64,000 nucleotides of DNA, from assembly GCA_000310025.1 (NCBI GenBank), contig FN649736.1:1160736-1224735 (forward strand), given 5' to 3'. Origin of the DNA: Ectocarpus siliculosus (taxonomy: Eukaryota; Sar; Phaeophyceae; Ectocarpales; Ectocarpaceae). Numbering within the stretch: position 1 is the first letter of the stretch; every line of letters starts with the position of its first letter. Under the pieces are notes generated by a model that saw nothing but the letters and a program-made list of their open reading frames with translations, was not told where the DNA came from and searched no databases. Position numbers and translations under genes: made by a program. Below are positions 11,422-55,026 of this stretch, one piece after another.

Positions 11422-12438
11422 GGCTTCACATGTAGTTCAAGACACCGCCCGCTATAGGACTCTGTCACCCACTAATCATCATGTGCATTAAATCTCGTAT
11501 TTGTGCAGGACGGAGTCAGTCAACGCTACATTCATCTAAATAGGCATCATGCGGGGCATCGACATCGATTACGAAGTGTCGACTAAGTTGTTAGTGGACT
11601 TCATGAGGAGCAGCATGGCAATGTTCTCACATCGCCCCCCCCTCAACGCTGTATATCCCGTGATATTACATCACAAAGGAAATTAGTCTCTCTCGTGATC
11701 TGTGTGCATGCACCAGCAAGGAAGGCGCGGACACCGTCATTGCCCCCCACCCCCGTTTCTGCGTTTTGAGGCGCACTTTCGGAGCCAAAAATAAAATCTC
11801 TACACGTTGTGACCAGGTCTGCCTACACAATAAAATTAGTAGTGGCGTTTAGAAGTATTTTTACTTTGTACTTCGATTACATGTCCGCGTACAAGTTGTC
11901 GCCCCAATCGAACGGATCTTTTTGCTCAACCAATCTTTCCACTGACGCTCCTTCGTGCCTACAACGTGCTATGTATTATAATAGTATCGACTCCCCTTGG
12001 TGGTCGGAACCGGAATTTCACAGGATTCGTTGCTCAATGTCCATGGGCGTGCCGAGGACGACGTCCGCTTGCCGTGTAGAAACATACCGAACGAAGGACG
12101 GTTGCAGCGCCTCGTACCAATACTCTGCCCTTACAGCAGTACAACAACCTTTCACCGCCCGATATGCATTTCGCCGGGTGCTGCTCTCTGGTGCTCCCTC
12201 CTTAATTCGTTCGTAGCATAGTAGGGAGGCGATCAACGCCTCTCCAACACCAATCAAAGGCAGGCGACACCGCAACCCGACACCACCAAGTCTGGAAAAA
12301 TGGCCACGTCGACAACGCACACTGCGGGTATTTACAACCTCGTACGATCGAGAAACGAAATGCAAGCGAAGGCACCTCAGTCTCGGGAAAGTCTTCGCCC
12401 ATTTCGAAATCTACGACAAACACACGCATTTGGAAACT

Positions 12439-15400
12439 TTACAGATTCCAGCCTTGCAAGTCTTCCTCTCTGAGACCGCTGCCTAGTCCAAGAGATAATC
12501 TCTTAACAGCATTGCCAACACATTATACTAGTGTTGGTGGCGACAGACTCCTTGCCATTCAGCTCCTCAGAGATGTGTCAATATCACAAGAGGGGGCACC
12601 TGCCAGGACTAACCTAGACCCCCCGACCGGCGCGCATCGATAGATATTCTTGGCGATCCACCCAGGAAGAGCCGGAAATCTGCGGCAAACGTAAGCAGGG
12701 AAAAACCTGAGAGAGATGACACCAACATGCCAACCTCGTTGGATACGGAGTTTGTTTGATACGTTGGATCTTGTACGGGAGAGACACACTCTAAGACTGC
12801 GTGTATCTCCGGGCAACTAGCTCACTAGCTCACTCACCATCGATTCCGAGCTTTTCATCGATAGAAACCGTTGCTTGTCTGAAACACTGAGTAGCAAGCG
12901 CCGCTCCGAGCCGGTCTGGATTGGCAATACCTGATTGGCGAAGGGTCAAAGTTGGGCAACACGAACGTTCGATTTGCGAAAGAAAGTGAATACAAGGGTT
13001 TTGGAAGGCTTGGGCACCGGTTTCAAAAGGATCACTACCATACCGGTGCTAAATAATACTCGACGCCGAACACAGTCTCACAATGGGGATCCGTGGCATG
13101 CAAACCGCTACTTGTATCATATCAGACACCATGAGATCCTGCACAAACCCGCCAACCTTCTGGTGCTTCAAAAAAAAGTATGTGGTTACCTTTCACGTCC
13201 TGCCCGACAGCACAGACCACTCTCAACACGCTCGCGATACACGTGGTAAGTTCTTCGAAGGTTAACTGGCCGTCTCCGTCTGTATCGAACAATGTGAACG
13301 CCACCAGTATCTGCACACCGGGGGACGGTCGACGGGCGCAAAAATATCAGTGTGAGGAAGCCAAGAGTAACAATCACTAACCAACCAAAACAAAACGATG
13401 GGCAAGGACCTGAACCAACAGGGAGTACGTTGCACAGATGTTTCCGAACTTGCACCAACCTTGTCTTTCACGGACAACTGGCATAATGTCGATATGCCGC
13501 AAGTTAAGGCAGCAAACCCCACAATTCCGTCGTTGTCTTGGAAGGCGCGGTGAATGCGCTGTGTGAGGAAGAAGGCGTCGTCCCATTCGACCGTGCCCTC
13601 ACTAGTCCCTCCCAGCTGCAAGAGGTAGCCGATACAGCGCCACATGTCGCCCAGAGCCAAAGTGCCCTGATACCGATAGATTGAAGACACAGGAAGATAT
13701 GTCTGGGTGCAAAAAGAAGGCATATTGACGGCGTGCTTCGCGTACTGAGGACTACTTGAAAGTTTGCGCTCCCTCAACAAACCGTTGTCGGAGGTATGGG
13801 TGGGGCACATATGACGAGGCCCGCAAAATAGGGGGGGGGATCTTCACGACTCACCGTCACGGTCACTTCCGCCAATATTTCCATGAGTTCCATCACGTTG
13901 AAGCAGTCCAGGCAGAGTAACTTTCTCGCGCGCATTACAATATGCTGCTTCCGCGACAAGCCTGCACCGTCTGCGTGCCCTACTTCCCTATCACCGCGAA
14001 GTGCAACATCCTCATCCGGCCGCGCATCATCTTCGCCCGCCTTTTCAATGCCCGGTGGCTCCAGTGGCTCAGCATCACGCGCAAACCCTTCTGCACCGTG
14101 TGGATTACCATCATCGGACAGCCACCCACTGAAGTCCCTTGGAGATATTCGACCATCGCCATTCCGCAATGCTTCCTCCATCATATTCGATGCTGTCAAG
14201 ATACCCAATGCCTCTGGAGCGATCCCCACCTGCTAGTACGACAAGCAGTGCAAGATTGAGAAAAAAGTGTCTGTTGCGGGATACTGTATGATCCACACAG
14301 AGATCTGACGCAATATTGCGGAAGTGCTAGCTCCAGCTGGAAATTTGAGTACGAGCCAGATCGGGCAGCTTCGCACCGGTAGTGTTTCGGAGTGGAAACA
14401 ATTGTACTTGATCCCTTTGACGAAACTAACAACTCGTTCCCACCTCTCCCTCGAGGCTTGGCTGCAGCTTGTACATGGCGCGAAACGCGGACGTGGTATA
14501 TGTTGCAATATCTCGTGCGGTAATCCCGCATTCTTCACCGCCCAGGAACAGATTGAAAATCGCTCGCATTTTCTCTTGTCGTGTATCTCCGCACAAAACC
14601 TGCCAGTTGAGATCGTCGTGGCGCTACAGAATGGTTGTCGCATGGTAGTAATATCACACCTATATCTGTTGCTTTCAACTTTTTTTATGTGTCCAACTAC
14701 CAATGTGCCGGGTTTTCAAAACGAATTCAACGAACCCCAGGGGCACGTGGAGCAACTCACACATAAGCCAAAAGATTGAGCTACCTCACTTTGGTGTGAA
14801 GCATACAAACGCAGTATCTTCGGACGCTGCTTGCATCAGATATCATGAGCATCGACATAATCTAACAGCACGACTCAGGTTAAGCGTAGTCACCAAACTA
14901 AACCACTCTCAACAACCGTCGCGCTCGAGATGTTCAGAGCTAGGACTTTATAAATCAAGTAAAACACAGACGTACCGACAGAGCGCTTGCAAACTCGCAG
15001 AAATTGACGTCCCCCGCGTTGTGTACATCAACAGCATCGAACAGGCGATTGATGACATGGTGTGCTGCCGCTGAGCTGTAGCTTTGGTCGCGAGCATTTT
15101 CTTCGTACTCCCCGACCGTCTCCCTAACTCGACTCTCGTTTTCGATCGCCGTGCGCAGACGGCGAATGCATTGATGAACCGATTGTCTTGCTAAGCGTCC
15201 TCCGTCATTCACGAAGTCTTTCAAAACTACAACAACCTGCGCAACTGAGGTATTGCACAACCGCGTGACTCGCCGCGCTTGCTCCAAACTCTCCTACGGG
15301 AGAGATCCACGGGACAAAGGTAGGGCCGACGGCGTGTTGCAGCCCAACGAGAGGTAGAGGTAGAGAAAGCAGAGCAAAGCGAAACCCAACACAATCACTA

Positions 15401-18400
15401 GAAACACTAGAAACACATCGTGTGTCGTTGCGGAGCGATGCAGCGAGGTGCAAAGCCCATGCAAGCGAGGTACCCTTCGATTCCCACTGTCAAGTGTCTG
15501 TAGCGCCGTCGCCCCGTCAAGTGACCACGAGAGGTTGGGTGGCTCTCGTGAGAAAATTCTGCAGGAATACATATACTACTGCGCCATAAATTCACTACCG
15601 CAGATCGCATACATACACATACATACACATTACTTCACATAGAAATAGTGAATATAGAACCTCGAGCACATGGGTGCATGTTAGTTCGTAGCGTAGCACT
15701 TGGTATGCAACACATAATTCTGGTCCTGCAGCAGTACGATGATGCCAAGGAAAAGCACACCAAAACGTACTTGCTGGGTGTGATCCGTACGGGCAATGGG
15801 GGTTCGGAATCGCGCAACACCCACCGAAAGAGGGGATTCGACCTCATCGAGAGTTCCCTTGCACGGGCGACCTTCTCCCCCTGTGTCCTCCTTGGAGGAC
15901 GAGCCATTGGCCGAGCGTTCAGCAAGTTTTTCCAGCTCACCCCGCAACTCATCCGGTTCCGTCCAGGAAGCCTCATTCGAGTTCGCCGCAGTGCTTGTGC
16001 TCGGATGCGCTTTCGAATGGAGCTGCAGCATATTAAAATATACAACAAGGTCGGAGTGCGCCAAAATTTGCACGGAAGCATGGGGAACACATACAAGATG
16101 GGCACCCAGGCTGGTATTTGGCACATGTCAACGACGCCGTAAACGTCTCTCACCACTAACCCGCTTACCCGTGCATGAAGGTCGACGTTCCGCTCTATTC
16201 TCTCATCATTCACGTCCAAGTCTCTCCTTTCCGTCGCTGCTGCTGTGCGAGATTCTTCCATGAGAGGTCGGGAACTCGCCAGGCCACAGCAGAAACGGAG
16301 GAAAGGTGTCAACGAAACCCTCACACAGCATGCAACTGCGCCCAAGTTGTGAAGTGATTCGGCCCAGTTCATGGAACGTATTTCCCTCACGCCCGAAGTT
16401 ACTGGTGCCCGGACGAATCTGTTCGGCGCGTATAAAACATGGTATGACACAGCGGTGGGGACACACGGGCTCATAAACAGAAATCCAGGTATGTAGCGAG
16501 CGAAGAGAGCTCCAACGAGTGTGTCACCCACACGCACTTCTTTGTCATAGCCAAAACCTTTTTCCCAGAAATATCTTGCATTCTTCGATCGGCACAAAGA
16601 AGAAGATTTCGCTCATTTGCCTGCCCTTGTGTTGCTCTACCTTGAGTACCAGTGGTGGAATTTTTCGCTGCCCAGCGTCCCATCTGGGTTCAAAACCGCA
16701 TCCTCAAACACATGAGCAGTGGCGGTTTCAGCTAAATATGCAGGATCCACGCGCTCTCCCCTTCCGCCATTCCCCGTAAGAACCCGTGCTCCCGGGTCCA
16801 CGCGAAACAATACCTGAGAGAGTGCGAAACAAGGGCATCGACGATGACGCCGAGGTTGCTGAAACACCCCGGTCACATACGAGTGAATGACTCAATGTCT
16901 TATTTGAACACCTCTTGTGCGACAATCGGAGATCGAGTCGTGGCCGCACCTTGAAAACCGCCTGTAGAAACTTCCGCATACAGTCTCGTGTGATGGAGCC
17001 CGCCGCAGTCCCGTAGACTTCGAACATCGCCCGGATACTTGCATCGTTGATGTTTCCACAGAATAAACTGATACCGCTGCTTTTTTATGGCCGTCAATTG
17101 AGGGAATTTGGGTCAAAACTACCTCAAATCCAAGTGACAAGCTGCGAGGGCCAGTCCCAACGGGATAGATCCCTGGTGAAAAATTACAAACAAATCAGAT
17201 TTCCGCCTGGACCTGAATGGGTAAGTGGAGGAAGCATCCCTTGCCACATTGCCCCCTTCGCGAGTAGTGAGACACGGGCAGCCTGGCCCATCTAGCGCTA
17301 CCGTACGTGACAACGAAGGTTCTTTTCTCCATCGCTCACCTGGCCAGATCTCTGAACGCCACGGTCTCCATTCGATCGCCGTCTAAAACTTGGTACAGTC
17401 GCGTTAGACTTATCTGCCAACACCCCGGAAACGCCAGGCGCATGGACGACAGAAAAACAAACTAAGATATACCAGTCTTTACGTACCTAGTGCCCTCCAT
17501 CCTGTCGTGGGGCGGGATGCAGGAGGCGACAGTGGCAAGATGCTCCCTACCGCGCTAAGATTGGCCATCTCGAAGTTGCGCATCACTTTTTCTTTTCATG
17601 AATATTTTTTCGCAATCCCATTTGTTGACCTTTGCTCGAAGTTTTCTGCCTAGGGTATGGTTTTGCTGCAAAATGAAGAGCTCCCACCCGGGGCCACACC
17701 GAGGAACTTCTCTGACGCTTCCCTCCTTTTTTCTTCGAGAACAGCTTCAGCAGTTCGTTGCTTCGAGTGTACTCACGAGCAAGCGCTCTTTCAGTACCAG
17801 GTACGAGCAGCAGGCAGAGCTCGCTTCGGTGGGATTCACTCCCTACGCTAGTTACTACATACAATAGACGGCTTGCCAGGTCACAACCACATTCCAATCT
17901 AACATATTCCAATCTAACAGGACACTCAGGATGCTCTTCTTGCATGTCGTGTTGACGATAGCCAAAGGGAGCTAAGAGGAAGTCATGTATCCCTACCTTG
18001 AGCTCCATCGTTTCCGCGGCGGAAAGGACGCAGCACCCGTCCTCCTGTACCAGTACACACCAGGCAGACACGCGCAGGACATATCCGGGTCACAAAGGGA
18101 ATGAATTACACTGATATGAGAATTTGCTTTGCCCCTTATGAAGCTGTTTCGACTCGGCAACATGCGTCGACAGGGGGCTTTACGAAAAACGAGCTTACCT
18201 CGAACAAAGCTCGCATGCATCCAACAAAAGCCGGTCGAGAAATTCCGCCGCTCTGGTCCACGAACGCCGACAACAATCCGAGAACAACCGTGATGTCGTA
18301 TTTCCGAAGACCTTGCAGTAAGTGTCCCCAACACCCGCCGCCTGCCGTTTCACTGCTCCTTTCGGTTTCCTCCAGGGCAGCAAAGGCCGACCTGAACCAA

Positions 18401-19581
18401 GCAGGGGAATGTTAGTAACCTTACTTCAACTGGTGGCGGGCGTTGGAATCATGGCTTGAAGTCTCGCATCGCATAGATTTCTTCTGTCTTCAGCTTGACA
18501 CTACCAACAGATGCATGCAAGACCCGATACTTGAGATGCAAACACATTTCCTGTTGGATATCTAGGCAATCCGAGACATGCATAAGCATAACTTCGTGGA
18601 TCTTCCACAACTTAGGGGGCTGCAAACACAGAGGAAGAAACAAACGAATGGTCGATTGTCAGGCGTCGAAAGGGCGGTGGGCTCTTACCAGTCGATCGTA
18701 ACGCGTCCACTCAGTGGTAATCCCTTGCGAAGGAAGAAGTCCGATGAAACAACGGCGGAGACCTCGTGCGGTAGCATCCCTGGCCAAGGCCAGTCTGCGC
18801 GGCCAGAGGCGTGGAGAACCTACGGGAGAAAAATCCAGGTTTCTTCTATTAAAAGTGCTGGAAGTGCAGCAGGGATCAAACTTGTTCGTCTCCGCAATAT
18901 CTTCGTTGCATGGTTGTGTTGAGCGGCACACGCCGCGTCAACCAGGAAATCCGAGTGCGATAGACTCGTACAACCGGTGGCAAGCGGATCGTGTACAGTT
19001 CGCGGTGTTGCTACCAGGCACATACCTTGAGAATCGAGAGGGTGAGTCCAAAAACGTCGTCGAACCCGGAATCACCATCAGGCCCTCTGTACAATCGGCA
19101 AGCGCACTGAACAAATTGTGCCATACTCGCATCGCACAGCACTGTCAGCCCTGCAGCCAAATCTTGGATGTGAAGGATTCCCCCTCGCCCGTCGTCGAAC
19201 AAACCAAATATCGCGCGGGTCGTGGACAGGGCCTCAATGCCGAGATTTTTCGCCAAGTGCTTCAAGTCGGCATCGAACTCGGCTCTGAGGACGCCCGACA
19301 AGTGAGAGGGAAGGACTCAACGATTGTAAGATGGAGCTCCCTGGCATGACTAAAGGGATCGATTCTTTCCGTGGGCGGTTTCGTGTCCACGGAAAAATGA
19401 AAGAAATGCAGCAAGGTAAGCGTACGAGATTGCAACCCTTTCCGAAGAGGTGGGTTATCCCAGCAAGATCAGCACATCGAAAGTAAGAATTAAGTTGCGG
19501 ATCAATCTCAGCGATCTGGCACAGACCTGGTCAGTTTCCCGTCACTTGCTGCAGTGGCACAGAGAGCATCCAAAACTTTGT
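12439..19581 (-). CDS. Large protein of four tandem EF-hand-type modules (5' end incomplete)
   Basis: Exons, 5' to 3' on the minus strand: 19527-19581, 19026-19284, 18689-18819, 18505-18619, 18199-18311, 17997-18044, 17340-17413, 16950-17076, 16641-16813, 16169-16274, 15771-16022, 14976-15293, 14444-14599, 13855-14229, 13460-13666, 13190-13310, 12838-12930, 12614-12679 and 12439-12467 (stop TAA). All join in phase except 18689 to 18619. The sum is about 935 residues. A module of four parts occurs four times. Its core is an EF-like segment followed by a line such as DLAAGLTVLC, DLASGISLFC, EFASALSVLC or ALTCGISTLC. A second EF-like helix follows, then a segment ending in FSGWL, HHWYS or DFRLFL. 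Only the last module keeps a canonical loop, DTDGDGQLTFEE; the others have lost ligands. I know no named family with this build. The first exon or exons and start codon are not resolved; they may lie at 19592-20260. Confidence 0.72.
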
Positions 19582-20984
19582 CTGCGGGAAACGCGAAGAG
19601 TCTCAATCTCCTTCTTAGCACCGCCAAACCTGTGTCCACCTGCATTTCATGTTTCGAGTGTTACATGTATGCAGCTTGAACGCTTTGACTTGATTGATAT
19701 ATAAAATGATAGCTATCGCACGAGGGACGGCAGTAGAGGGAATCACCTTGCCATGTGCCATCCACGTATACATTCCGAGCAACGTACATTTCCGAGCACA
19801 TCCAATTCTCACCGTGGTCCTGGGTGCATCGGGTACCACTTGTTGTACTGCGGCATGTGCCGAAAATAAATCTTGGAGAATATTTTCCAAGGTATCCTTG
19901 CAGCCTGACTCGCTTGCTTCTATTTTGTCTTTCCTCCCCGTCGCACGCCCCTGCTTTGCAGTACCTCCAAGCACAGGGACAATGCGGCATGGGGCCCGCT
20001 CCGAAAAATACTTTGGCGCTCTGGAAATGAAGCTGACTGGAAAATAAGTATCGAGAGACGGATCCACGAGCCCCGCCACCTTGATTGCACGCAGTACGAA
20101 GTGTTGCAAACGAAGTGAATAAAATATCAGCTGTGTACTGAGGAACAAACGCAAACAACGGCGATCAAAGTTCGGCGCAGCACCGCCACATATCGAAACT
20201 GGTCGACGTTGGTAGAGAGGCTGCCGATGAAAACATGCACATGTTAGCCTCCCGTCAGACATGACCGAATCTCAATATGCAGTGCGCGGCCCGACTGCCT
20301 TGTTAGTACATGTTTGCACAACCTTCAAATGTACAACTGTGTTCTTCACCTTGTCTGGGAGCGAAAACGCAGCTCTCAACGCCTGTTGAACGTCGCTGCC
20401 AGATATTCCCGGATACACAAGAAGAGCCTAACGAAACGCAGGCAGGCATTTGGGTGTTCATGGTGTGTCTGCGTTGCTGTACAGAATGCGTCTTGTACTA
20501 CATGAAACGGCAGTTTGCAGGGTTAAACGCTTCCACAAATACTACAGAAGTAAATTCGAAGGGCATTGGGGGGCCTCGGCCCAGGAGAGATACCTTACAA
20601 TTGGCGGGTGACAGCCGCTCGTTGGATAACAGTTCGCAGACCACCAGACTGGTATGAATACATCACTGCTGCGTAGAACCAGAGGACCATCGAGACGGCC
20701 AGGAATTCGGTGGGCTATGCATACATCTTTTGACCAAACGATGTATCACTTATATGCATATGACAGCTCGTGGAGCGAGCGAAGGGTCACGCGGGAAAAA
20801 GCGCAAGAAATAAAGGCGGCTAGTCTAGAGGATACGTGTACTATAGGAGTGCGTGCAATTACGGGGGCGTGCCTTCTGCAAGAATCAAGCAACAATACGG
20901 AGGATTGATGCATCAAAGGACCAGTTCCGACCCCTTGCCGCGCAGCTGTAAAATGCCCAACAGCAAAAACGCTACATGCAGCAT
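19582..20984 (-). other. Region upstream of the EF-hand gene exons; start not resolved
   Basis: An open frame on the minus strand at about 20080-19823 (DPSLDTYFPVSF ... VPDAPRTT, ending at a GTGAGA donor) could be an N-terminal exon of the EF-hand gene. Its frame does not join cleanly to the exon at 19581, and a second frame across the same donor does. I could not decide. Nothing else is recognised here. Confidence 0.35.
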
Positions 20985-21119
20985 ACCGTAAACTACACAA
21001 GATAACACCCCTCCGGTGATACATTTTTGGCTTTAAAAATCTTATCACCGGGGGTGGTATCCTGTGGGGTGTGTGGTATCTTATGTAGCCCGGGTGATAA
21101 GTGCAGCTCGCAGGGGCAC

Positions 21120-21345
21120 CTAAGGGGGTGTGATAAACCAGGGGGTGTGACAGCACGTCCGAACACCCACAGAGTGTGTTTGGGGGTGTGATAAATGAGG
21201 GGGTGTGATAAAAGGGGGGTGTGATAGCCAGTCAGTCTGAACACCCGCAAGGTGTGTTTGAGGGGGTGATAAATGAGGGGGTGTGATAAAAAGGGGGTGT
21301 GATAGCAACTCCGAACACCCACAGGGTGTGTGTTTGGGGGGGGGG
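21120..21345. repeat. Tandem array of about 75-80 bp units built on GTGTGATAAA
   Basis: The phrase GAACACCC(A/G)CA occurs near 21159, 21238 and 21312, each followed by GTGTGTTTG and two or three GGGGGTGTGATAAA words. The unit is thus about 75-80 bp, roughly three copies, ending in a run of 13 G. Single copies of the word recur near 21897. Confidence 0.75.
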
Positions 21346-21355
21346 GGGCGTACTC

Positions 21356-21890
21356 TTATGTTTTGCATGCCTTAGCGGTTAGACCATTGACCACGCGTCC
21401 TCGAGAGGACGGAGCATTATTCCCACAGGACCGATCACCGATGGCCAATCGTTCCTTCCTACTTTGCCAAAGGTGGCTCAAAAATGTCTTCCCTAGTTTG
21501 TCTATCCTACCGATGTCCCTTCCCGCCTTTTCAAACCACTTTCTACTCCCCAGTACCGCTACCGTCCTCTCCTCTCTATTCCGTGCCTCAAACATCTCCC
21601 TGTACGTCACTTGTATTCTTCCCAGCTCAGTCATGTACACTTCCCTCTCCTTTTCGTACCACGGACATTCCGCGACTACATGAACACTGTCTTCGCATTC
21701 GAAGCCGCAATCGCATTTGAACTTATCGTCTTCGTCGTCTACCGTCCTATGTCTTCGTCGACGTTCGCGAAGGCCTATGTCCCCGGTCCTGAATTTGACC
21801 TTAAGCTTTGTCCCTGCATCCATTGGTCCATGTAGGTAATCCTTGAACCCTATTCCTTCTTTCAACATTCCGTACACTTCTAGACCCTTG
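21356..21890 (-). pseudogene. Fragment of a non-LTR retrotransposon reverse transcriptase C-terminus
   Basis: The minus frame reads RTGDIGLRERRRRH, then a Cys/His cluster CDCGFECEDSVHVVAECPWY, then a helical tail. This order (basic segment, CxC..C....HVV..CP, WYEKER) is typical of the zinc-binding region near the C-terminus of LINE-type reverse transcriptases. The polymerase core and endonuclease are absent. The open frame runs back into the surrounding GTGTGATAAA repeats, so it is a captured or 5'-truncated piece and not an active element. Confidence 0.7.
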
Positions 21891-22552
21891 TTTGGGGGGG
21901 TGATAAAAAGGGGGGGTGATAACACTGCTTGTAGAGTCGAACCGCTGCTGCCGCACACTTGAAGGGGTGCCGCAAACTTGAAGTGTGGTTCTGCGGGGAT
22001 GTGGTAAAACAAAGGGGCTCAACGGAGGTAGGTGACGAAACTCCTGAGCACGTGATCTCGGTGATGACTCAACCCCCTCAACACCGAAGAAAGTTTCAAA
22101 CAAAATAACGTCAGCAACCATCGCTTGATGGAGCATGAAAAATGAAAATTTAATCGAAGGTACCTTGTCCGATATGATGCGAGGCCGTGGCCAGAGTGCG
22201 CCATCCTGCCCCATAACAAAAAAGTGGCTGCTGCATACATACCTACCTTGCTATCATCGGGTACGACCAAAACAAAATTACGCAAAGAAACCACCACCAA
22301 AAGTCGAAGACCACAAACCACTACCGTGTGACAGCAGTGTGCGATGCCCACGGGGCAGATGATGTATCACCCCGGTGATAGAAGGAGGGCCCCCGTGAAT
22401 GTATGCGGCGTAACCACGGGGTGTGTTATCTTACGTAGCCCGGGTGATAAATCGATGGTTTGTCAGAAATGCCGAAAATTACCACCGGGGTGTCGTATTC
22501 TATGGGGGGTGTGGTTTCTTATGTGGGTGTGTTATCTTGTGTAGTTTACGGT

Positions 22553-26500: not shown

Positions 26501-29349
26501 CATTGTGCCATTGTGCGATATCTGTTCGAGGTTAAAATTATCACGTCGTTGTTTACTTTGTATTACACGTGCTCTTTCTAACACTCCGGACTGCGCCATA
26601 GTTGGCAACGTCACGGTGGTCATTATTTCTATTGGAACGATTGGTGCAAACTGCTTCACGATGGGCTCGATCACGGTAGGACTCTGAGTTCTGTCGAAAT
26701 GTCACAAGGCATGCACATTCTACCTACTCGGCATTTGCTGGTTTTTACGCCGAGGCGTAGAGCAGTTGGGTGTGTTTAGAGAGCCAAATGTGTATTTTTT
26801 GAACCGTATTCTACATTTTTCTGTGTGGCGTACTGTTTGCAGGAGGCCTTCTACACGACGAACCGGGTCATGACGGTGTCTTTCCACAAGTTTGGAGAAT
26901 ATTTCCCTGGCACGGGCGACGTCAAAGATGTTGGTGAGGTTGCATTGTTTGTTGGCATGTGCGATGCGAGCCACGACTTGACTACTGTCCATCCACCCTT
27001 TTGCAATGTCTTCGTCGCTAGCGAGCAGCACTTGATGTTCAATTTTAGGTGGCATGGTACACTCGTGAGTTCACCTGCATTTTCAATTTTTCTTTGCGTT
27101 GCCTGCTTTGACGTTGGTCCTTTTACAGGCGTGGCGCAGGGGAAGAACTACGCAATCAACTTCCCGTTGGCAGACGGCATCAACGATCAGAGCTACCGAA
27201 GTATCTTCAGGCCAGTCATCGAAAAGGTATATATTTTCTCACCCAAAGTGCCTCGTATGTGTCAGAGCTTGCCACCGTGCGTTTGCACCCTGCACTAGCG
27301 CTGTTGCCTCCATTCTCGCCAATATTAGTTCTTGTTCCGCTTTTCTCTTGGAAAGGGAGCCGTTATCGTCCACTCACCATGGATCGTCGGCCAGAATTTC
27401 GTGGAAGTTGCGTGACCGAATCTCGATTGTGTGGATGTTTGGCACTCACAATTTCGTTCTGACATGTACAACCTTGCTTGTTGTGAAGGTGATGGAGCAC
27501 TACTCGCCGGAGGCAATCGTAATGCAATGCGGAGCAGACTCCCTCTCAGGTGACCGTCTTGGCTGCTTCAACCTCTCGCTCAAGGGCCACGCTGATTGCG
27601 TGCAATACGTGAAAAGCTTCAATGTGCCGCTATTGGTGCTTGGTGGAGGAGGCTACACGCTTCGCAACGTGCCGCGCTGCTGGGCATACGAAACTGGAGT
27701 ACTTCTTGACACTGAGCCGTCGGTAAGCAGAATGGTACCACAAGGGGGCGCACGCATTCGGTTGGTGTTCATGTAGCCGTCGCGTTCAGCGGGAAAACAA
27801 CGGGCAACGATATATTTGCTCTTCTTCAGCGAGACCTACACATGTCAAGCTCGATTGTAGTGGACTTGAACGCTGGATGGCACACGTACGTGCTGTTTTC
27901 TTTCGTACTCCTTTTGTACGACACACGGCATGGGTCCCACCAATCAAACCGTTTGGCCTTATGTTTTGACAGTATCGCCCCCGTTCCGCCGCGTTGCAGG
28001 ACATGCTTCCATACAACGATTACTTCGAGTACTACGGCCCCGACTACCGCTTGCACATGCCTACGTCCAACATGGAGGACATGAACAAGAGGGAAACTCT
28101 GGAGGAGGTGGGTTGGTTGATGGGATGGGGTACCTTTCGAAGATTCCAAAGCCAGCTGAAAACATCGTTCGTTTGGAACTACTGTTGTGCGGGTGCTTGG
28201 GTACGTGGAAGCTGACCTGCCAAGTTTTTCACACTTGTTTCTAAGAACGCACTTTCGAAGGCACCGGACAAGTAACACCTGAAGGTATTTGTATTGCCGC
28301 CACTGGATGCAATCAATCGTATAGAAAACGATGGGCATTTTCAACCACAAAATTTAGAGATACCGTGGCATCAAGTAGGGGACCGGGAGCTCGCTTGCGC
28401 TATGTTTTGGACTCGAGAGGTTCTGCGTCATGCCGCAGTGTGATTAGTACCAGCTGGCATCACTGATACCTTCAGTGCATGCGCTTAAACAGGCTCAAAA
28501 TACGTGCAGGGTTTTGCTCCCCCGCTTACTGCGAAGTTCAATACTCTTCGACTGTGGTATTATATCTCCAACGGGTAGGGTCTTTCAGGGATGGTATCTT
28601 CTAAGTACTAAATCGAGCTGAGCTTTTTGGTGTCTCTGTATGCTACACACTCGCCCCCCCTTCGAACGGGTAGAGTCTTTCACTGATTGTATGATATCTT
28701 CTACTAAATCGAGCTAAATCGGGAGCGCTTTTTGGTGTTTCTTCGTAATGTACCCTCGCCGCTCCTTCGGTCGACGGACCGAAGGTCGAGTGTGTAGCAT
28801 GCAGAGACAAGCTCCCGATTCAGGTCGATTTATTACTTAGAAGATACCAATTGGAAGATACCATAAATTCACTGAAAGACTCTACCCGTTGGATATAACA
28901 CCACGGTCCAAGGGTATTGAAATCTTCGCAGTAAGCGGGGGAGCAAAACCGTAGGATGCTGGGCTATTTTGAGCCTGTTTTAGCTTAAGGTATCAGTGAT
29001 GCCAGCTGGTACTAATCACACTCGTTTCATGTGTCAGGTCTCACTGACCTTGGACCATGTCAAGTACCACTTGTAGCCGTGCAACTTGATGTACGCTTAC
29101 ACCGTCACAGCCCGACACATGCGTACCATGTGAGGGACTGACACACCGTTCTAACGAAACATGTGATTTCCCCGTCGTGCTTTGGTACCACAGACCAAAA
29201 TCCAGCTGTTCGAGATCCTTCGGTCCCTCGAAGCTGTCCCCGGGGTTCCGATTGAAACGGGTGCTGAGGTCAAAACCCCGGCTACGTTGCGGATGCCAGA
29301 AGAGGACGAGGAAATGACGGAAGCGGACGACAGGCCGACAGGTGCTTGA
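23520..29349 (+). CDS. Class I (Rpd3/HDAC1-type) histone deacetylase
   Basis: Nine exons join in phase: 23520-23580, 24003-24208, 24814-24990, 25770-25889, 26843-26933, 27129-27226, 27489-27722, 28000-28107 and 29194-29349 (TGA), giving 416 residues. The start ATG is 18 codons before the conserved YFYD, as in the family. Motifs: [10 protein letters not shown] (substrate rim), [22 protein letters not shown] with the catalytic His pair about 144-145, [11 protein letters not shown] with zinc ligands Asp about 180 and His about 182, [14 protein letters not shown] with zinc ligand Asp about 268, and [10 protein letters not shown] with the transition-state Tyr about 307. All catalytic residues are intact. 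It removes acetyl groups from histone lysines in nuclear corepressor complexes (family knowledge). The C-terminal tail after about 375 is acidic ([13 protein letters not shown]) and much shorter than in human HDAC1. Introns hold a telomere-like run and a foldback element. Confidence 0.96.
25241..25270 (+). repeat. Short telomere-like run in HDAC intron 3
   Basis: GGGTTAGGGTTAGGGATAGG and a further GGATAGGG: two exact TTAGGG units then two ATAGGG variants. Too short to be more than a trace. Confidence 0.6.
28437..29022. mobile_element. Foldback (long terminal inverted repeat) element in HDAC intron 8
   Basis: The ends AGTGTGATTAGTACCAGCTG and its reverse complement enclose 586 bp. Homology between the arms continues inward with gaps: the GCTCCCCCGCTTACTGCGAA block (28517) is mirrored by TTCGCAGTAAGCGGGGGAGC (28925), and the GGGTAGGGTCTTTCA block (28576) by TGAAAGACTCTACCC (28874). 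The left arm holds a second, diverged copy of its inner part (28668-28760), so it has an internal duplication. No open frame. No clear target duplication. Confidence 0.8.
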
Positions 29350-42715: not shown

Positions 42716-45700
42716 ATGGAAGGCCAGGAGCGTGTCATCAAGCCGAAGCCTAAACTGACCAAAGCTGAACGAAGAGAAATTCAGGAGAGGCAGAGAGCCG
42801 CGAAAGCCTCAGCTAGAACAGGCGAACAAGCCGCTGGAGCCGCAGGTTTGTCTAGCGGGAAACATGGCCAGGCGAGCTCGTTATCACCATCACTGCCAGG
42901 CTCGGGGCATGTATCTGCCGGACAGGTTCGTGCATCGGTCCCACGCATGGGTACAGAGTAACAAGGGTGTTGCAGGTTCTTTGCCTTTTCTTTTACAGGA
43001 CTGTCAAATCAGCGGCTCCTTGCTGCCGCGCACCGCTGTACGCTGACATACTGCTGTCATGCAGTAGAATACAAAATGAGCCACGTAAACCTTTGTTGCT
43101 GTGATGCATGACGACCTTCCTTTCCTTCGTAAGGTATATTATCGTATATATATATCATCGATTCATTTTTCCTTCGGGGTAAGGAGATGGCACACATTTA
43201 CACGTTACTGCAATGCCAAAACATTTTTCTCAGCAACGGGTTCAATATTCCACTAGCACCGTTCTCGGCAGCTTCACGCGTGCGATGTGTATCAACCGGT
43301 GTGTGCTTGTGAAAATCGCTCTAGGGCTGAGGTCGTTATGCCCCTCTTGGGGCAAAGGACGGTGTGGTATGAGAAAGGTTTGAGCAACAACCACAGGTTT
43401 TGTCTGCCTCCCTCCCTTAACATCAAAACAACAAAATACGAAAAAGTACGTATCACTACAACAGAGCACAGCAGCAGCAGCGGACTTGTTGTGATAATTG
43501 GTAAACAACGCCCTATTTTTGGCTTGGGTCAACCGCAGAGAGAGAGATGGAGAGATCCTTCCACGTATGGTTTCTGGCTTCCCGTAGGATTGCGAGTCAT
43601 CGCACCTCCGTGTGGTCGTTTGTGAATCATTGTCGCCATTTCATTTTTTCATTTTTTCGTCGCTAGCACAACGGTTCGGTGGCCCCGGACTGTGCGATGA
43701 CTCCGGACCCTGTGCGGAGATCGAATTAAATCGTTTAACCAGTTTATTTTTATCGCATGGGGGTGCGAGGACTCCAGACTGTGCGATGTCTCTGAACCGC
43801 GCGATGTCTTGTAATGTTCCGGTTATCTCTTTGATGTGGGCTGGAATGGAACCCACTTCCCTCTGAGGGAATACTTTATATATCTCTAAGATACGGCACC
43901 TCGGCCGCATGTCATGTACGCCTGGGCAGAAGCGAGCGGGGGGGCAGCAAGGTGCATTGGCGAACAACGTCCACATGTTTTCGCACCTGGAGCAGAATCG
44001 AGGAGTGCTACCATTGACGTCGAAGGTACGGATATGATGAACGAATTGATGCGCTCGGCAGTCTCAACAATCGTCACCAGGCCGAACCAAGGACTTCGTT
44101 GTCGTCAATGATGTCGACGATAGTGGAAAGGAGAGACAAAGATAGCTCGCCGCACCGTTGGGACCTGTTGACTGCCCGAAAGTACGCGAACATAAGAGCT
44201 GCTGTAGGCAAGTTCCGCCGAAAGATGCCTTTCGGCAGCAATGTATAGACCTTAATATGGATAATGTGACGTGCTTTGTTGCCAGGGAGACATCCACCCT
44301 GCGATCTTGGCTCTAGGACGCAAGTATTCGAGCGGTGAGGTGACTGGAGCAACCGCAAGGGCAGTGGCGATGCTGATGGCGTTCAAGCAGGTCGTCATGG
44401 ACTACTCCACACCTCCGGACAAGGTGCAATCTTGGTGCAAAGCAGGGAAAATAAACGATCTCGCACCGTCGCTGTCGACTTTTTGCTGCACCCTCGAAAA
44501 CTCGTCACGCTGCGATGCGCCTCCGTTTTCTGTCATTCTCCGGCTTGTGTGGTTGGGCCACAATTTCACCAATGGGCTTGCGTTCCGCCGATTCAATAGC
44601 GGCTTGGAAGTCTCCTGCTTCGTTCCACCCGCAAGCGTGCCTCCGTGTGGTGTGTTTGGCATTCGCTGGGCTAGCCTACAAGACCACGCTGCAGTCAGTG
44701 GCTGACCGAGTAGTGGGTTATCCTATCTATCCCATCGATCCACCACCCGCCCGCTCAGAGGTTTGGCTGACCTCTGCTGCATGATTTTAACTGCCGTCGA
44801 TGAAAAATCCAACCACAGATGCTGAGCTGGGATCTGGACAAGAGGCTACGCCCGATGATGCAATACCTGATAGATTGCCGACCCCACTCAGTGAGCATGG
44901 GCAATGCCCATAAGGTGCGGGAACTGCTTCCACTTGTTTGCGTATGATTGGCGTTGCACTTCCAAAACATCGAAATCAAGATAACCACGGAGTGTTTTTG
45001 AGCACGGGTGCTGCCTACAATGTACGGGAAGCTCTGAGTACGGCTGCGTGTCATTGGGGTGCTGGTGCGAAAACACCAAAGCTCTAGCCGCCAGTCTGTT
45101 GAAAGTAACCACAGAGTTGCATATTCTCGTGAAGCGCGGAAACAGCTTACGAGACTCCCACTGTTGTACTTGGGCGTTCTACTCTTACTCCTCGTCGTCG
45201 GGCTCAATAGATGTGGATGGCCTCCGTAACCCTTTCGAACTTGGTGCCCTTCCCACGACTTCTGGAACGTCGGCGTTGGGGCAAAGCTTAATTTTTCGTA
45301 GTGGGATGCAGTGCTGCGCAAGACAGTCAACTGACGTCCGAACTGATGAACCTCAAAAAACTGATGAACCCCTAAAAAATTGATCAAGGCGCTGAGGAAT
45401 ATCATCGCCAAGTCGCCCCCTTCTCTGCCGGAGGAAGAGGCCAAAGCGAGCATCGTCGACAAGATCAAGGAGTTCATCAACACGCGGATTACCTTGGCGG
45501 CGAACGAGATCGCCAAGAACGCCATCACTAAGATCAGGGATGGTGACGTCATCCTGACATACGGAAGGTGTGTTGTTAGCTTGTTAGGCACAGCGTTAGG
45601 CCTCTTGCCGCAGAATAAAGGTGAAGATGGTAGCACGTTGGTGAAACGGAATGCAGCCTCAGCAGAGAATTTTCACCACCGTTATGTTCGTCATCTCCCT

Positions 45701-47607
45701 TCTTTGGTGTTGCGGAGCAGGTCTTCTTTGGTCGAAAGCGTTTTGGTGGCTGCGCAGCAGGCCAAACGAGGGTCTTTCAGGGTGATCATCGTGGACTCGC
45801 GCCCTGGAGTGGAAGGTCGCCAGCTTTCCGAAACACTCTCTGCGGAGGGCATTCCTTGCACATACGTCCTGCTCACTGCAATATCTTACATCATGAGGGT
45901 AAGCACGGACAACCTTTCTCCTGCTTTGAATGTGTCTTTCTGATGTCCGTGGCTCTTGGGTAGTCCGTGCAGTCTTGGCGCACAAGAGGATAGTGGGGGT
46001 GATGACCGAAAACGCGGGATCACACCTGGTGCAGCATGGCAGAAACTCCATTTATCTTTGCGACCGTCTCACAGTATTTTTGTTGCATGATTTCGTGCTT
46101 ATTGCAGGAGGTGACGAAGGTTTTCATCGGTGCTTCGGCAATGATGTCAAACGGCGCCGTCTTGTCCCGAGTGGGCACGGTGAGTAACTTTCGTTTCGAG
46201 AGGGACCATGCGATGGAGATGAGATTATTTGGTCTAGGAACCTTTGTGTGTTTCCCGTCAGTAATGCATGCTCCCGCATCATGTCCCGCCCCGCCTTTCC
46301 TGTCCTCTGTCAATTGGCTCGCTGAATGATCTGTAGGCGGTCGTGGCGATGATGGCGCGCTCGCACAACCTCCCGATCATGTTCTGCTGCGAAACCTACA
46401 AGGTGGGACTTCTGACGTTGTGACTGGCTTCATGGTGCATGATGTCAATAGCGTAGCCTTGTTGGACCGCTGGACTTCTTAAGCACCAGCAGGATGGTAT
46501 CGACCAACATGGTACAGTCTAAACCTACACGGGAAGAACTGACCACGGCCTGACTCTCTGCGCTGCCACATCCGTTGCCTATTTTGTCGATGGTCATTAT
46601 TCTACCGGGAAAGTCTTGACACTATCGGGCGTACAGCACCAGAATTTGGAGAGTAAATTTAACAGCAGCCTAAGAACGCCTTTTCCCCATGGTCACGCTA
46701 CTTTCAGCGCTGTTCGTCTTGCCCACCTCTTCCGCTTCCTTGTGTGTTTTCACCCAACTAGTTCTGCGAGCGCGTGCAACTTGATTCGATCGTATACAAC
46801 GAGCTGGGCCAGCCGGATGACCTGATTTCTGACGCCAGTGGTGGGGATGTGGACGAGTTCAAGGCTTTACCCAGGTAGACGAGACACGTTAGTGAGTTCA
46901 CCGACGTTATTTGTTGAACTGCGTGTCTATGTGGTCATGTTCGTGTGCACCGACTAGTTGGGGAGTCTTCCCGAGCTGCGCAGCTCGTGCCGCGCGCCTT
47001 GAAACGGTTGCACACCGACGAACTAATTGAAGACGGTCATCTCTCGGTTAATGGCGGCTTGGTTTAGATCGTGGCCAAAAACATTGCAGGTAGACCAGGG
47101 CTGCATGTAGTTCATTGACAAGCACAGTTCAAGGACCCGATTTGGGTCCCTTTTATTTTCTCAACAATGAGGTTAACTAGGGTAATTCTGGCAAGGAACT
47201 ATGTTACTTAAGGGTGTTCGCTTCGACCAACTAAATGGCCACAGATGCTCGATTGCCAAAACCAAAACGACCAGGACTGCAATCCGACACGGAGACCTTA
47301 CTCAAATTGCAGGTTTGGCACGGATAGGGTGCCAAGGATATGGTACTTGTTGGAATGTATCCACGGCATGCCACTTTTGTCCGCTATTCCCGCGTGCGAT
47401 CGAGTGTCGTGTAACATCTATGCCCACCCTTGCTGCCCGTTTGTTGTTTGTGTCCTCAGCCTCAAGCTGTTGAATCTCCGCTACGACCTCACACCGATCA
47501 AGTATGTCACCCTCGTCATCACGGAGTTTGGCTTCTTACCTCCGACGTCTGTACCGGTACTCATTCGAGAGATGACACGAAGGGAAGACAAGGACGAAAA
47601 GTACTGA
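42716..47607 (+). CDS. EIF2B4: Translation initiation factor eIF2B subunit delta
   Basis: Ten exons join in phase: 42716-42845, 43952-44025, 44286-44423, 44819-44914, 45389-45567, 45721-45898, 46108-46179, 46337-46402, 46762-46874 and 47460-47607 (TGA), giving 397 residues. The N-terminus is Lys/Arg/Glu-rich (PKPKLTKAERREIQERQRAA). Then follow the family motifs NVHMFSHLEQNRGVLPL, GDIHPAILALGRKY, LIDCRPHSVSMGNA, GDVILTYGRSSLVESVL, VVDSRPGVEGRQL, IGASAMMSNGAVLSRVGT and FCCETYKFCERVQLDS, and near the end NLRYDLTPIKYVTLVITEFG. The delta subunit lies in the decameric core of the GDP-GTP exchange factor for eIF2 and helps sense phosphorylated eIF2 alpha (family knowledge). The N-terminal extension is much shorter than in human (523 residues). 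The exon 1 to 2 join is the least sure. Confidence 0.95.
43141..43164. repeat. TA-rich microsatellite in eIF2B delta intron 1
   Basis: Run of TATATATATATCATCG type in non-coding sequence of the first intron. Confidence 0.5.
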
Positions 47608-47768: not shown

Positions 47769-50700
47769 TTAAAATGGAGCCTCGGCGGTCGCAATGCCAT
47801 CCTGCCCTAATACATCGTCGTCTCCCTCGTCATCGTCTGTCACAATCCAGTCGTCGCTGCCATCAATATCCGTCGAATCTCCAACATCTCGCTCATCTTC
47901 GGCAGCAAGCCGGTTGTAGTCGTGAAACGCAAACCTGCGGAAGCACACAGTGTAGATGCAGGGTTGCGTTGGGGGTGAGGCGAGTTCTTGGGGTCACCAC
48001 GACTTGGCAGTATGCTGTCATGTGTGTCAAGTACACATGCACACCAAAATCCCGAGCACACAAATTCTATTGATGCGGAGAAACGTTCATTACAGTCGAT
48101 CTCATGGCCGGCAAGTATTGGCGCAAGTCGGCTCATCACTGTCGTGTAACATTTCGCCGATAAGACGTTCCACACACGGCAATTTCGAACAGCCTGCGTG
48201 TTCTGCATGCCGGAGAACGAGAGGCTAGAAGACCGTGCGTCCAAGGTGTTGGTCTGACGAATTCCTAAAAGTCAGACGTGCAACGGCTACGGGAGCACTC
48301 CTGTTCGTCGGGCAGCTTGAGCACGTTTGATGCGAAATTATTTGTGACAACGGACGACGACACTGCCGTCACACAGCAGTACACAGCAAGAGTGACAAAA
48401 ACATTTACTCCAAGTGGAGTAATTTGTATACACGGAACAACGCGTCCGAAATGTAGAGGTGCTCATAATGGCTCTGGAAAACAACCACAAGCAGCCAGAC
48501 GACCTACCTATCCCAATCTGTCTCAAACGGGTCGTTCCTCCTTTGCCGCTCTGCAAAGGGGTCTCGTTGCTCGAAGCCAATGAATTTGTTCAAGTTGAAC
48601 AAGGCGTCGAAGAAGACGCCCCCCACCTTCAATGTCTCTGGCCTCAGAAAGTCCTGCGAAACCCCCAAAGGCAACGCTCATATGAGTGTAGTTCGAATGG
48701 TACAATAGTTCCAAGTTTTAGATTCCGCTAGAGAGAGGGTGGGATTCCTCGATGTGGTTGCGATACTTGTCCAATGGATGTGGACCCATTTGCTTACGCG
48801 AAAATTACCAAAAACCGTTGAGTTATATAAAAGCCGAAGTTGCCTTCATCGGGTGAGAGGCAATCGGAGGAACTTGAACGCATGCGCCGTTCGTTTTTTT
48901 ATCACACGAGGCGCGCCAGATAAACAGCGTCAGTGCTCGCACCTGCAAGGTTACGTAGCTGCGGTCGCCAAGCTTGAGCATGTCCCACATCTGACAGACC
49001 ACGTCTTCAAAAGGCACGACTTCGTGGCCCAGCGACTCCATCCGATGCACCTGCAGCCAGTTTCACAACAGCACTTGATCGAAAAAAGACGTGGCTCACT
49101 CTGTCGGTCCTTCCACACTCCACACGAAGGTATTGATGGCCCGTGCATCTACACGAGTGACTAGGCAACATCATGCCAGTGCAGAGGTTCGCTGACTGAG
49201 TCAAGTGCATGGGCTAAGACCCAAATTTGCACTCATTCCGCTGAAAGCAGCAAACGATGCAGAAGAGAAAATCGTTTGGCGCTACATGCACACAACACAT
49301 GAGTGCTTACGAAGCGCAAAAGGTCTCAGGTTTCTGTGCATCCTTCCAACCTTCGGTCACGTGCCTGATTGTCATAAAACAAACGCATCTCCATGTGGCC
49401 GATACGCCCATCCCCGTCCAGGTCCACGCACGTGAACCAATATCGCAGACTATGTTCGTTCCCTCGATCTTCTTCACTGAGCATGAAGTACACATAGTCT
49501 TCGTAGGTCATTGTTGCTCGGGGGTCCGATCCGTCCTCGTTTCTTCGCCCCTGAGGAAATGGCCGTGGACCCACCGACATGATCCTGTTCGACAAAACAC
49601 AGCACGAAATGTGGTAGACTGTACGCTTCCAGTGCCGATGAAAACAAGAGCCCGCACGCACCTTCACTGTACGTACAGTATGTACCGCCAAACAGCAGGT
49701 TGACACCTCCTCAATTCTCCAAACCATGGGCACAACACAATTCGTACAAAAGTGCACGTGGCGCGAATAAAAAGAGAAATCAATGTGCTCTGGAGTGTTC
49801 GAGTTGGAACAAATGGGTGGGCGATGACGGTGATTCTTCGGCAGTCCCGCTGCATAGTTTGATATGCGAAACGTGCGTTCACCTGTCCACGATGAGGCGG
49901 CTTAGGCCATGCTCGCCGTATTTGATGAGATCTTCTTCACTCAAACGCCCGTCTCGATCAGCGTCTAGCTCGTAGAAGCGACAGAACACAACGTAGAAGT
50001 GCTCGTACGAGAAGTACTCCGTCACCTTGGAAAAAAAAAGTTTGTCGTTAACCACTCACGTACGTTTATCCGTCCGTCCCCTCTTGTTAACTTAAAAAAA
50101 CAATGTGACAGAGGGACAGCGTATCAACCCATTGCCTTCCGTAGTCCTGCAACATCTTCCGCTTTGGTAGCACACATTCGGCGTGACATCAATGATTGGA
50201 GTGGTCATGCTAAACATTTCCGTCCGCTACTGCTGGGGATACCTGAGCAGTCGGAAACACCGCTTTCCGCTTACTTTGTTGATGTCCTCCTCTTCATCAA
50301 CCGTGTTGAACACCTCCACCAAGTTGCTCCGTCGCAGTTCGCCTTGGCTGATGCGGCCACACCGACTGTGCACACGAAAAGAAAATCCAAGTACTACTAA
50401 ACAATCCTGGCCAGGTCACGCATTGTACGGCATCATCTTGAGTCCCAGAGACATCGCCTGTTGCCTACAAGTGCCTGCAAATGATGAAGGCTACTTTAGG
50501 TGCCAGCGTGCAAAGCACGGTACAATCACTGAATGCCGACTTGTTTGATGACGGGCAATACTAGTGATGCTGTTCTTGTCTCTCACGGAACCAGATAATA
50601 CTCAGCCGTTTCCTACTTGCATGGTACATAGTCGTAAGGCGCCTCACCTCGTGTTGACGATATAAAATATTCTCGTGGTGACCGTTGTAGCGTACTTTGG

Positions 50701-53009: not shown

Positions 53010-53053
53010 CCACTATGAGGGTGAGGCAAAGTACGAGACATGCCTACATGCAC

Positions 53054-53580
53054 TGTTGGATGTACTCACAGCATTGACAGATTATTGCAACCGAGGAATG
53101 TTCCTAGAAGATGGAGCGGGGGATTTTGGGGGTTCCGCAGTTGTAATAAATTGGGGGAATGGTGGTACCATCTTTGCCACATATTATTGTTTTCTGGGTA
53201 TGCGTGTCAGCAACGGTGTTGGCCACGTGCCCTTGATTTATTCATCTTCCTTTTTCTGTGTATAATCAAGTCCTTTTTCCGGCTCTCACGCCAACCCCGG
53301 CTTCCACGCCCATACTCCGGCTATCACGCCAACCCGGCTTCCACGCCTTCAGGACTCCCACGTCCCTACATATACCTTTACATCAGGGCCACCACGCCAC
53401 CCGGCTTCCACGCCACAACTATATTATACACGAGCTTCCACGCTCCACCACGTAGAAGGGCTTTCACGCCCGCGGATAGTTTCTACATTTTGACCGTTGG
53501 CAGTAACCCAGCTGCTGGCACCTTTTGTTTCCCACTACGGGACCCCGCGCCGAGGCACCCACGCACAAAGCTACTCAACA
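53054..53580 (+). repeat. 5' LTR
   Basis: Direct repeat of 58305-58830. Ends TGTTG...CAACA. Its second half carries many copies of a (C)GGCTTCCACGCC-type word (about 53280-53472), giving it an iterated structure. TATATTATACACG near 53420 is the best TATA-like site. Confidence 0.9.
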
Positions 53581-53581
53581 C

Positions 53582-54973
53582 GCTAGCGTAATAGATCAAG
53601 AAAGTGGCTGCTGTGTCTGCGCGAATAAGACGGCTGGAGGAGATGGACGAAGACCTCCGCGGGGACCAGGGACTAGTTCCTCTCCCCACGGGGAAGACAA
53701 CGGGGGGGAAGGACGAGGTTCGTTGAACCTCCCCGATGTGGACCAGCAGGGAGGAACGAAAGCAGCCGCGGATGGAGGGGAACAAGATCCAACTATCGCC
53801 CTTGTCGACCTCCTCCGCCGGGTTGCCAACTTCGCCTCCCAGACTCCGGGACATGACGTCCGCTCAGGCACGTCTAGTTCCCAGCCCATAGAGTTGAAGC
53901 TGAGAGAGAGAGTCGAAGTACCTGAGTGGAATGATGCTTTCTTGAAGGATCGAAGTGTGACTGTCGCGTTCCGAATTTTTACGAGTTGTTTCTCAGGGTG
54001 GATGGATGCAGAGGGTCTTGAAGAGATCATGAGAGGAGAAGAGATTCCTGTGGGTTCGTTGCACGTCGATAAGACTTGGTTGCGGCAGAGGTATGGCGAT
54101 GAAAGTGTTCGAAAGGCCACGAGAGTCTGGATGTGCTTGATCACGAAAATCAACGTTCAACCTATACTAGACCAGATACTAGCTTCAGAGAGTCCACGAG
54201 CAGGGTGGAGAGTGTTTCAGTCCTACTACACTACAAACAGGACGCATGAGAGAGAAATCCTGGACGGCACTTGGAACTGCCTTAGACAGAAGCATGGAGA
54301 GACTCTGGTCGACTACTGGGGAAGGGCGAATACTGTGTGGATGCAATTACAGTCTTGTGGGGACAATCGAGAGGAGACGTTAATGTCGAGACACTTTGCA
54401 CGTGGCTTGCTCCCAATGTACGACGATGTCAAAGACCGTATTCTGTTCCACCCCATGCTTTCGAGAGGTACTCTGGAAGAGACGCTGAGGCTGGTCGAGC
54501 ACGAGCAGAGGATCAAACGGAGGTGTGGGGAGGGGATCGAGGACACGAGGCATGCGCCCGTCGCTGCCGGCGCAGGCCGGGACGGCGGCATGAGGAGAGC
54601 AGCTGCTGCGGGAGCGGATGGCGGACCATCTCATGAGCAGAGAGGTGCCTTCTTCTGCCAGGTTCACGGAGCGAACTCCTCCCACAACACCCCAGACTGC
54701 CATAAACTTCGCAAGGACTTCTTGTTCCACTACAACGACTTCATGGCGTTCATTCGCGAGAGGGACGGTATGCGGGGACCAGGTTTTCCTCAGGCCGGGG
54801 GGCAAGAATCGGGGCGCTTGTCGGGCGGATCATATCGAGAGCAGCTGCACCAACTCGACCAAGGGGCAAGCTGGGGTCGGGGCCGCCCGTTCTGTCCCCG
54901 TTCTGCAGGGCCCGACGCTGATGAGCAGCGAGTCTTCAACGAGGCCTTTAGCACCGCTACTCAGCCGGCGACT

Positions 54974-55026
<53 letters not shown>

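Follow-up and report, generated by a model that had tools for sequence, protein, structure and literature searches.

A predicted minus-strand gene at 11,877-19,645 of a 64,000-nucleotide stretch of the Ectocarpus siliculosus genome (assembly GCA_000310025.1, contig FN649736.1, positions 1,160,736 to 1,224,735; hereafter the window, whose own numbering is used throughout) encodes four divergent EF-hand-type domains. These domains have the size and motif order of neuronal calcium sensor (NCS) proteins and calcineurin B, and a canonical calcium loop is present only in the third motif of domain 4. The four domains (units 1-4) belong to one gene or, at the least, to two adjacent genes with two units each. 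The reading that we favour, with a probability of roughly one half, is that the product would act as a multivalent scaffold, for the most part blind to calcium, in which a single site still responds to it.

The four-fold repeat far exceeds what chance would produce. The four units are homologous, are 180-199 residues long each, and can be aligned over their full length with pairwise identities of 19.5-26.0%. Each unit was scored against a profile of the other three, using two sets of unit boundaries and alignments (hmmsearch was run without filters for the second set). The scores in the two sets were 28.9 and 27.1 bits for unit 1, 54.7 and 54.2 bits for unit 2, 64.1 and 64.5 bits for unit 3, and 41.1 and 39.7 bits for unit 4. 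In the shuffle control, the best of 999 shuffled sequences per unit reached 5.3-8.4 bits across the eight held-out tests; with the first boundary set the best shuffles scored 6.6, 7.5, 6.7, and 6.0 bits for units 1 to 4 (721-838 of the 999 per unit were listed, the remainder having scored too low). A first-pass annotation, made from the sequence alone, had described a unit occurring four times, and held-out scores of 27.1-64.5 bits against a best shuffle of 8.4 bits bear this out. Among the peptides that it had quoted, DLAAGLTVLC and ALTCGISTLC lie within open minus-strand exons and DLASGISLFC and EFASALSVLC each span an intron between such exons; the four helices ACRLY, AMFEVY, AIFNLF, and AFTLFD were likewise found in open exons of that strand. 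A profile of all four units was then run over the six frames of the window, which contain 2,334 open stretches of at least 15 amino acids. It gave 14 matches above 15 bits in 13 stretches, all on the minus strand between 12.8 and 19.7 kb, with the next best match at 5.6 bits; the best of 2,603 stretches in the reversed window scored 6.0 bits. Because this profile contains the scanned sequences, its 14 matches arise partly by construction, and the held-out scores are the fair figures. The open frames, together with units that remain alignable at 19.5-26% identity, argue for selection on each unit.

The units can each be read as a four-EF-hand domain laid out as in NCS proteins and calcineurin B. 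By reading, the first motif lies before the DLAAGL-type helix, the second ends in that helix (GLSVLC), the third comprises the ACRLY/AMFEVY/AIFNLF/AFTLFD helices, and the fourth is close to the unit end; the earlier layout, in which a third EF-like piece followed these helices, is corrected to four EF-hand-like motifs per unit. In the Protein Data Bank (PDB), the four-unit profile matched NCS-1 (1fpw, which we take to be the yeast protein) with an E value of 4.3e-12 over motifs 2-4, KChIP4 with 9.1e-11, and calsenilin with 1.5e-10, and it also matched hippocalcin, calaxin, calmodulin, and calcineurin B; 370 distinct sequences had E values of at most 1, and the top 60 of them were listed. The decisive control was a profile of units 1-3, from which the canonical loop is absent: it matched NCS-1 (1fpw) with an E value of 9.1e-9 in a collinear alignment that begins inside motif 1 and runs through motif 3. 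In that search 154 sequences had E values of at most 1, the top 60 being listed. The collinear profile alignments to NCS-1 jointly span motif 1 (in part) to motif 4. Unit 3 alone matched guanylate cyclase activator 1A (E 1.3e-4) and KChIP1 (E 1.5e-4), and Pfam EF-hand_1 matched unit 4 with 45.5 bits (cut-off 25.4). Similarity to the EF-hand superfamily was found by profile in unit 4 through Pfam, in units 1-3 together through NCS-1, and in unit 3 alone. In addition, the exon at 14976..15293 (minus strand), which carries motifs 1-2 of unit 3, was modelled with AlphaFold2 from an alignment of six other exon pieces. The predicted structure was helix-loop-strand-helix twice, with a mean predicted local distance difference test (pLDDT) value of 72.1 in model m4b4cb4e9aec9 and values of 60.8-66.8 in the other four models.

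Several results weigh against this assignment. Unit 1 alone gave nothing significant in the PDB (best match calsenilin, E 0.11) and neither did unit 2 (sole match NADPH oxidase 5, E 0.18), so the EF-hand nature of these two units rests on their relation to units 3 and 4. Unit 4 alone matched calmodulin best (6.9e-9), ahead of the NCS-type hippocalcin (2.3e-8). A Foldseek search with the half-domain model of unit 3 returned 140 matches at E up to 10, none at or below 0.001 and the best at 0.29; nearly all of the 50 listed rows are, from their titles, EF-hand proteins or complexes containing one, none of them significant. The structure model of the unit 1 exon carrying motifs 2-3 was poor (mean pLDDT 51.4) and was left out of the evidence. 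The single NCBIfam match of the four units (E 0.27) was taken as chance. For the whole protein, the best stretch of every Pfam family above its cut-off falls in unit 4, and unit 1 alone gave one EF-hand match of 12.1 bits, under the cut-off of 25; most of the chain would therefore probably read as domain-free.

The EF-hand loop pattern was matched once in the 1,028 predicted residues, by DTDGDGQLTFEEL at residues 855-867, within unit 4. The corresponding feature is the third motif of the fourth unit:
13251..13286, minus strand: canonical calcium loop DTDGDGQLTFEE, EF-hand pattern match, coordinates checked.
The other 15 of the 16 candidate loops, which were picked by eye, fall outside the pattern. 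The first-pass annotation had placed a canonical loop in the last unit only, in agreement with one fitting loop in 16. It had further proposed a loss of calcium binding; with 15 of 16 loops off consensus this is a fair inference, but absence of the consensus is not proof. The non-consensus loops suggest that calcium binding may have been lost.

The gene model was assembled by eye from the three minus-strand frames between 24.0 and 9.0 kb, with exons chosen by open frame, GT-AG ends, and phase. It comprises 19 exons and 1,028 codons with consistent phases, and all 18 introns are GT-AG, with lengths of 63-583 bases. The exons were picked with the repeat already known, and the agreement in phase is therefore a biased test. 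The extent given earlier, 12,439-19,581, is widened by this model at both ends. The predicted product has 1,028 residues, a computed mass of 112 kDa, and a computed pI of 4.9. The proposed start is an in-frame ATG at 19645, with an in-frame stop (TAA, 19663-19661) six codons upstream, giving the predicted N-terminus MQVDTG; as an alternative to this start, an AG directly before 19639 would permit an additional upstream exon. The weak points of the model are the GAG acceptors at exons 16169-16274 and 12022-12239, and the latter exon, in the C-terminal tail, also has the lowest codon score. The features are as follows:
19527..19645 (19527-19639 without the ATG), minus strand: exon 1, with the proposed ATG, where unit 1 begins; profile match of 41.8 bits.
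19026-19284, 18689-18819, 18199-18391, 17997-18044, 17340-17413, 16950-17076, 16641-16813, 16169-16274, 15771-16022, minus strand: remaining exons from unit 1 to the linker.
14976-15293, 14444-14599, 13855-14229, 13460-13666, 13190-13310, 12838-12930, 12376-12410, 12022-12239, 11877-11958, minus strand: remaining exons from unit 3 to the stop.
18361..19645, minus strand: unit 1, residues 1-180; exons 19527-19645, 19026-19284, 18689-18819, and the start of 18199-18391.
18199..18391, minus strand: join of units 1 and 2, a single open exon in which unit 1 ends and which also carries the first EF-hand-like motif of unit 2.
16268..18333, minus strand: unit 2, residues 190-377; exons 18199-18391 (part), 17997-18044, 17340-17413, 16950-17076, 16641-16813, and the first bases of 16169-16274.
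15771..16274, minus strand: linker connecting unit 2 to unit 3; exons 16169-16274 and 15771-16022, with a predicted splice to unit 2.
14107..15293, minus strand: unit 3, residues 495-693; exons 14976-15293, 14444-14599, and 13855-14229 (part).
13855..14229, minus strand: join of units 3 and 4, a single open exon that runs from the last part of unit 3 through a linker into the first helix of unit 4; profile matches of 45.2 and 26.3 bits in one frame.
12376..13950, minus strand: unit 4, residues 746-929; exons 13855-14229 (part), 13460-13666, 13190-13310, 12838-12930, and 12376-12410.
11877..12239, minus strand: C-terminal tail; exons 12022-12239 and 11877-11958, stop TAA, in phase with unit 4.

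The C-terminal tail (99 amino acids) matched no Pfam family, and its best PDB match, urease (E 1.3), was taken as chance. Between units 1 and 2, a candidate exon at 18,505-18,619 was dropped, as no frame-keeping splice was found for it. A fifth unit upstream of unit 1 (20,012-20,648; phase-consistent pieces resembling motifs 3 and 4) was also rejected: the joined piece scored 0.7 bits, a value that 50 of 999 shuffles (758 of the 999 listed) also reached, and none of the three pieces had a codon score as high as the 95th percentile for open stretches in introns, although with pieces this short the codon test is weak. Unit 1 moreover already begins with an ATG that has a stop upstream of it. Further upstream of the gene, a cluster of short direct repeats (21068-22450) with the core GGGGTGTGATAA surrounds a minus-strand open reading frame (ORF) at 21359-22018, which has a cysteine-rich stretch and no Pfam match at E up to 0.01.

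Two questions concern the architecture itself, namely whether the four units form one gene and how they arose. We infer that units 2 and 3 are joined through the two linker exons. The codon score is positive from the 20-codon windows starting at 16282 and 16010, near the modelled linker starts at 16274 and 16022; in exon 15771-16022 it is negative at the first codons and again in the last window. Extending the linker exons at their starts (16,612 to 16,283 and 16,100 to 16,023) was rejected for codon usage that is mostly intron-like in the scanned frame, one of the 11 windows of the first stretch being positive. Counting against the join, the splice acceptor is GAG, and exon 16641-16813, if left unspliced, runs through one extra codon past its donor at 16641 before meeting a stop. 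Both features, and an in-frame ATG in the linker exon, would fit two adjacent genes, the first holding units 1-2 and ending in HHWYSR-stop and the second holding units 3-4 and starting in or before the linker. We consider this arrangement unlikely, given that the gap would be only 366 bases, that the splice between units 2 and 3 is phase-consistent, and that the positive codon run begins where the model sets the linker exon. Ten of the 11 twenty-codon windows in the gap are non-coding-like in the one frame scanned; the exception at 16552 (0.196) means that the codon evidence for the join is not clean. None of four poly-A-like words occurs in the 366-base gap, and just one occurs in the 477 bases past the stop of the model, so that this test is weak.

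As regards the origin of the units, a single origin through duplication inside the gene is undecided, with clear support in the sequence comparisons for unit 3 only. Against the profile of the other units, unit 3 scored 64.5 bits, above the best PDB chain (38.2 bits), whereas unit 2 (54.2 bits) tied with NCS-1 (56.7 bits), unit 4 (39.7 bits) tied with the best PDB chain (38.8 bits with the units 1-3 profile), and unit 1 (27.1 bits) was far below a calmodulin-calcineurin B fusion (52.1 bits) and NCS-1 (50.9 bits). The intragenic duplication put forward in the first-pass annotation is thus clearly supported only for unit 3, which stands above any PDB chain; unit 1 falls below NCS-1, and units 2 and 4 tie. 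The similar intron positions that it had reported within the units did not hold up: among the 14 introns within units there is one exact coincidence of place and phase (units 1 and 2, after motif 3), for which P = 0.12 when placement is random; under less strict criteria P was 0.13-0.59. An intron pattern not beyond chance and the scores of units 1, 2, and 4 against NCS-1 would also be expected if four already-different EF-hand domains had been joined with no duplication inside the gene, a possibility that we take seriously without holding it to be the probable one. The high score of unit 3 speaks against it, as does a cysteine at the end of the second motif, which is common to all four units and is a weak hint of common origin. 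Furthermore, degenerate sequences lose score fast, and profiles that include the canonical loop of unit 4 favour canonical proteins.

Judged from the fold alone, the product would be an acidic intracellular scaffold of about 112 kDa. In NCS-type domains the partner helix sits in a groove between the EF-hand pairs, and myosin essential light chains hold their partner helix irrespective of calcium. Similarly, each domain may retain the EF-hand fold and the helix-binding groove and would grip a partner helix irrespective of calcium; with 15 motifs off consensus, the likeliest role would be the constitutive holding of several partners. The intact loop of domain 4 may bind Ca2+ (or Mg2+) and would then adjust the partner of domain 4 or the packing of the chain. 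A more tentative proposal is that the gene encodes a lineage-specific chain in which four NCS-like clamps, three without a response to calcium, form a multivalent scaffold controlled by the single calcium site of the last domain.

The main functional alternative, which we regard as improbable, is an axonemal structural protein, for example a microtubule inner protein of many degenerate EF-hands like EFCAB6 or RIB35. EFCAB6 and similar multi-EF-hand proteins carry many EF-hands per chain. The units 1-3 profile matched calaxin (E 3.5e-6) and RIB35 (E 8.2e-5, with no single RIB35 stretch passing alone), and EFCAB6 is described in one study as a doublet-microtubule inner protein (PMC10663601). However, NCS-1 and KChIP outscored calaxin and RIB35 in both profile searches, EFCAB6 was absent among the PDB matches listed (the best 60 at most per search), and the locus is without ciliary evidence. 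A calcium sensor gene in decay, that is, a pseudogene or nearly so, might account for the 15 of 16 loops that are off consensus, but 1,028 stop-free codons over 19 exons (chosen to be open), 18 of 18 GT-AG introns, and units that align from end to end at roughly 20% identity make this very improbable.

Compared with known systems, the units resemble most closely the NCS family (NCS-1/frequenin, KChIP, hippocalcin, recoverin, and GCAP), whose members carry four EF-hand motifs, ordered in the same way, within about 190 residues and ranked first or close to first for the unit profiles among the PDB matches listed; the units, at 180-199 residues, are collinear with NCS-1, the motif count being by reading. 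NCS proteins start with Met-Gly, an N-myristoylation signal, and consist of a single domain with at least two working calcium loops. The predicted protein differs from them in having four domains in one chain, a start (MQVDTG) without Met-Gly, and one consensus loop in 16. Calcineurin B, plant CBL, and calaxin share the four-motif layout and gave significant matches to the unit profiles, but they are single-domain proteins and score lower than NCS-1. Calmodulin has four canonical loops in 148 residues, unlike the one canonical loop in 1,028 residues found here; it scored below NCS-1 with the four-unit profile, yet it was the best match for unit 4 alone. According to a review (PMC4415241), calaxin has been reported only from opisthokonts, and LC4 and DC3 homologues occur in brown algae. 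In centrins with pseudo-EF-hands, as one source describes (PMC8622359), some motifs also bind no calcium, but centrins are small single proteins. Passages of a study that catalogued the calmodulin and calmodulin-like genes of one kelp genome (PMC10222329) contained nothing bearing on the gene, and none of the literature matches listed (few terms, mostly open-access papers) describes a protein built from four NCS-like units. No part of the four-unit alignment was sufficiently conserved for a homologue search. Searches for relatives of unit 3 gave 2 pattern matches in viral contigs and 34 in prokaryotic genomes, none confirmed; these collections are without eukaryotes and say little.

Elsewhere in the window, Rfam and tRNA scans found nothing. 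Two identical 300-base direct repeats, at 53053-53352 and 58304-58603, lie 5,251 bases apart. Between them is a long plus-strand ORF (53507-55240) that matches Retrotrans_gag weakly (E 0.0073, under the cut-off), and the element at 53053-58603 is probably a young long terminal repeat (LTR) retrotransposon. The plus-strand ORF at 27069-27773 contains the C-terminal portion of a histone deacetylase domain (Pfam E 4.9e-18), and the one at 45368-45940 has a match to the family of IF-2B initiation factors (Pfam E 5.3e-23). The minus-strand ORF at 49329-49901 has an EF-hand match (PF13202, E 8.2e-4, under the cut-off) and presumably resembles a PP2A B'' regulatory subunit.

Taken together, the gene is an unusual arrangement of a very common fold and a variant of a very common kind, the EF-hand being one of the most frequent folds in eukaryotes. 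Should its product prove to be just one multi-EF-hand protein among many without a name, it would be ordinary. If the architecture is real and conserved, it would show calcium-sensor domains converted to a calcium-blind scaffold, and its degenerate modules could be used to look for such proteins in other protists.

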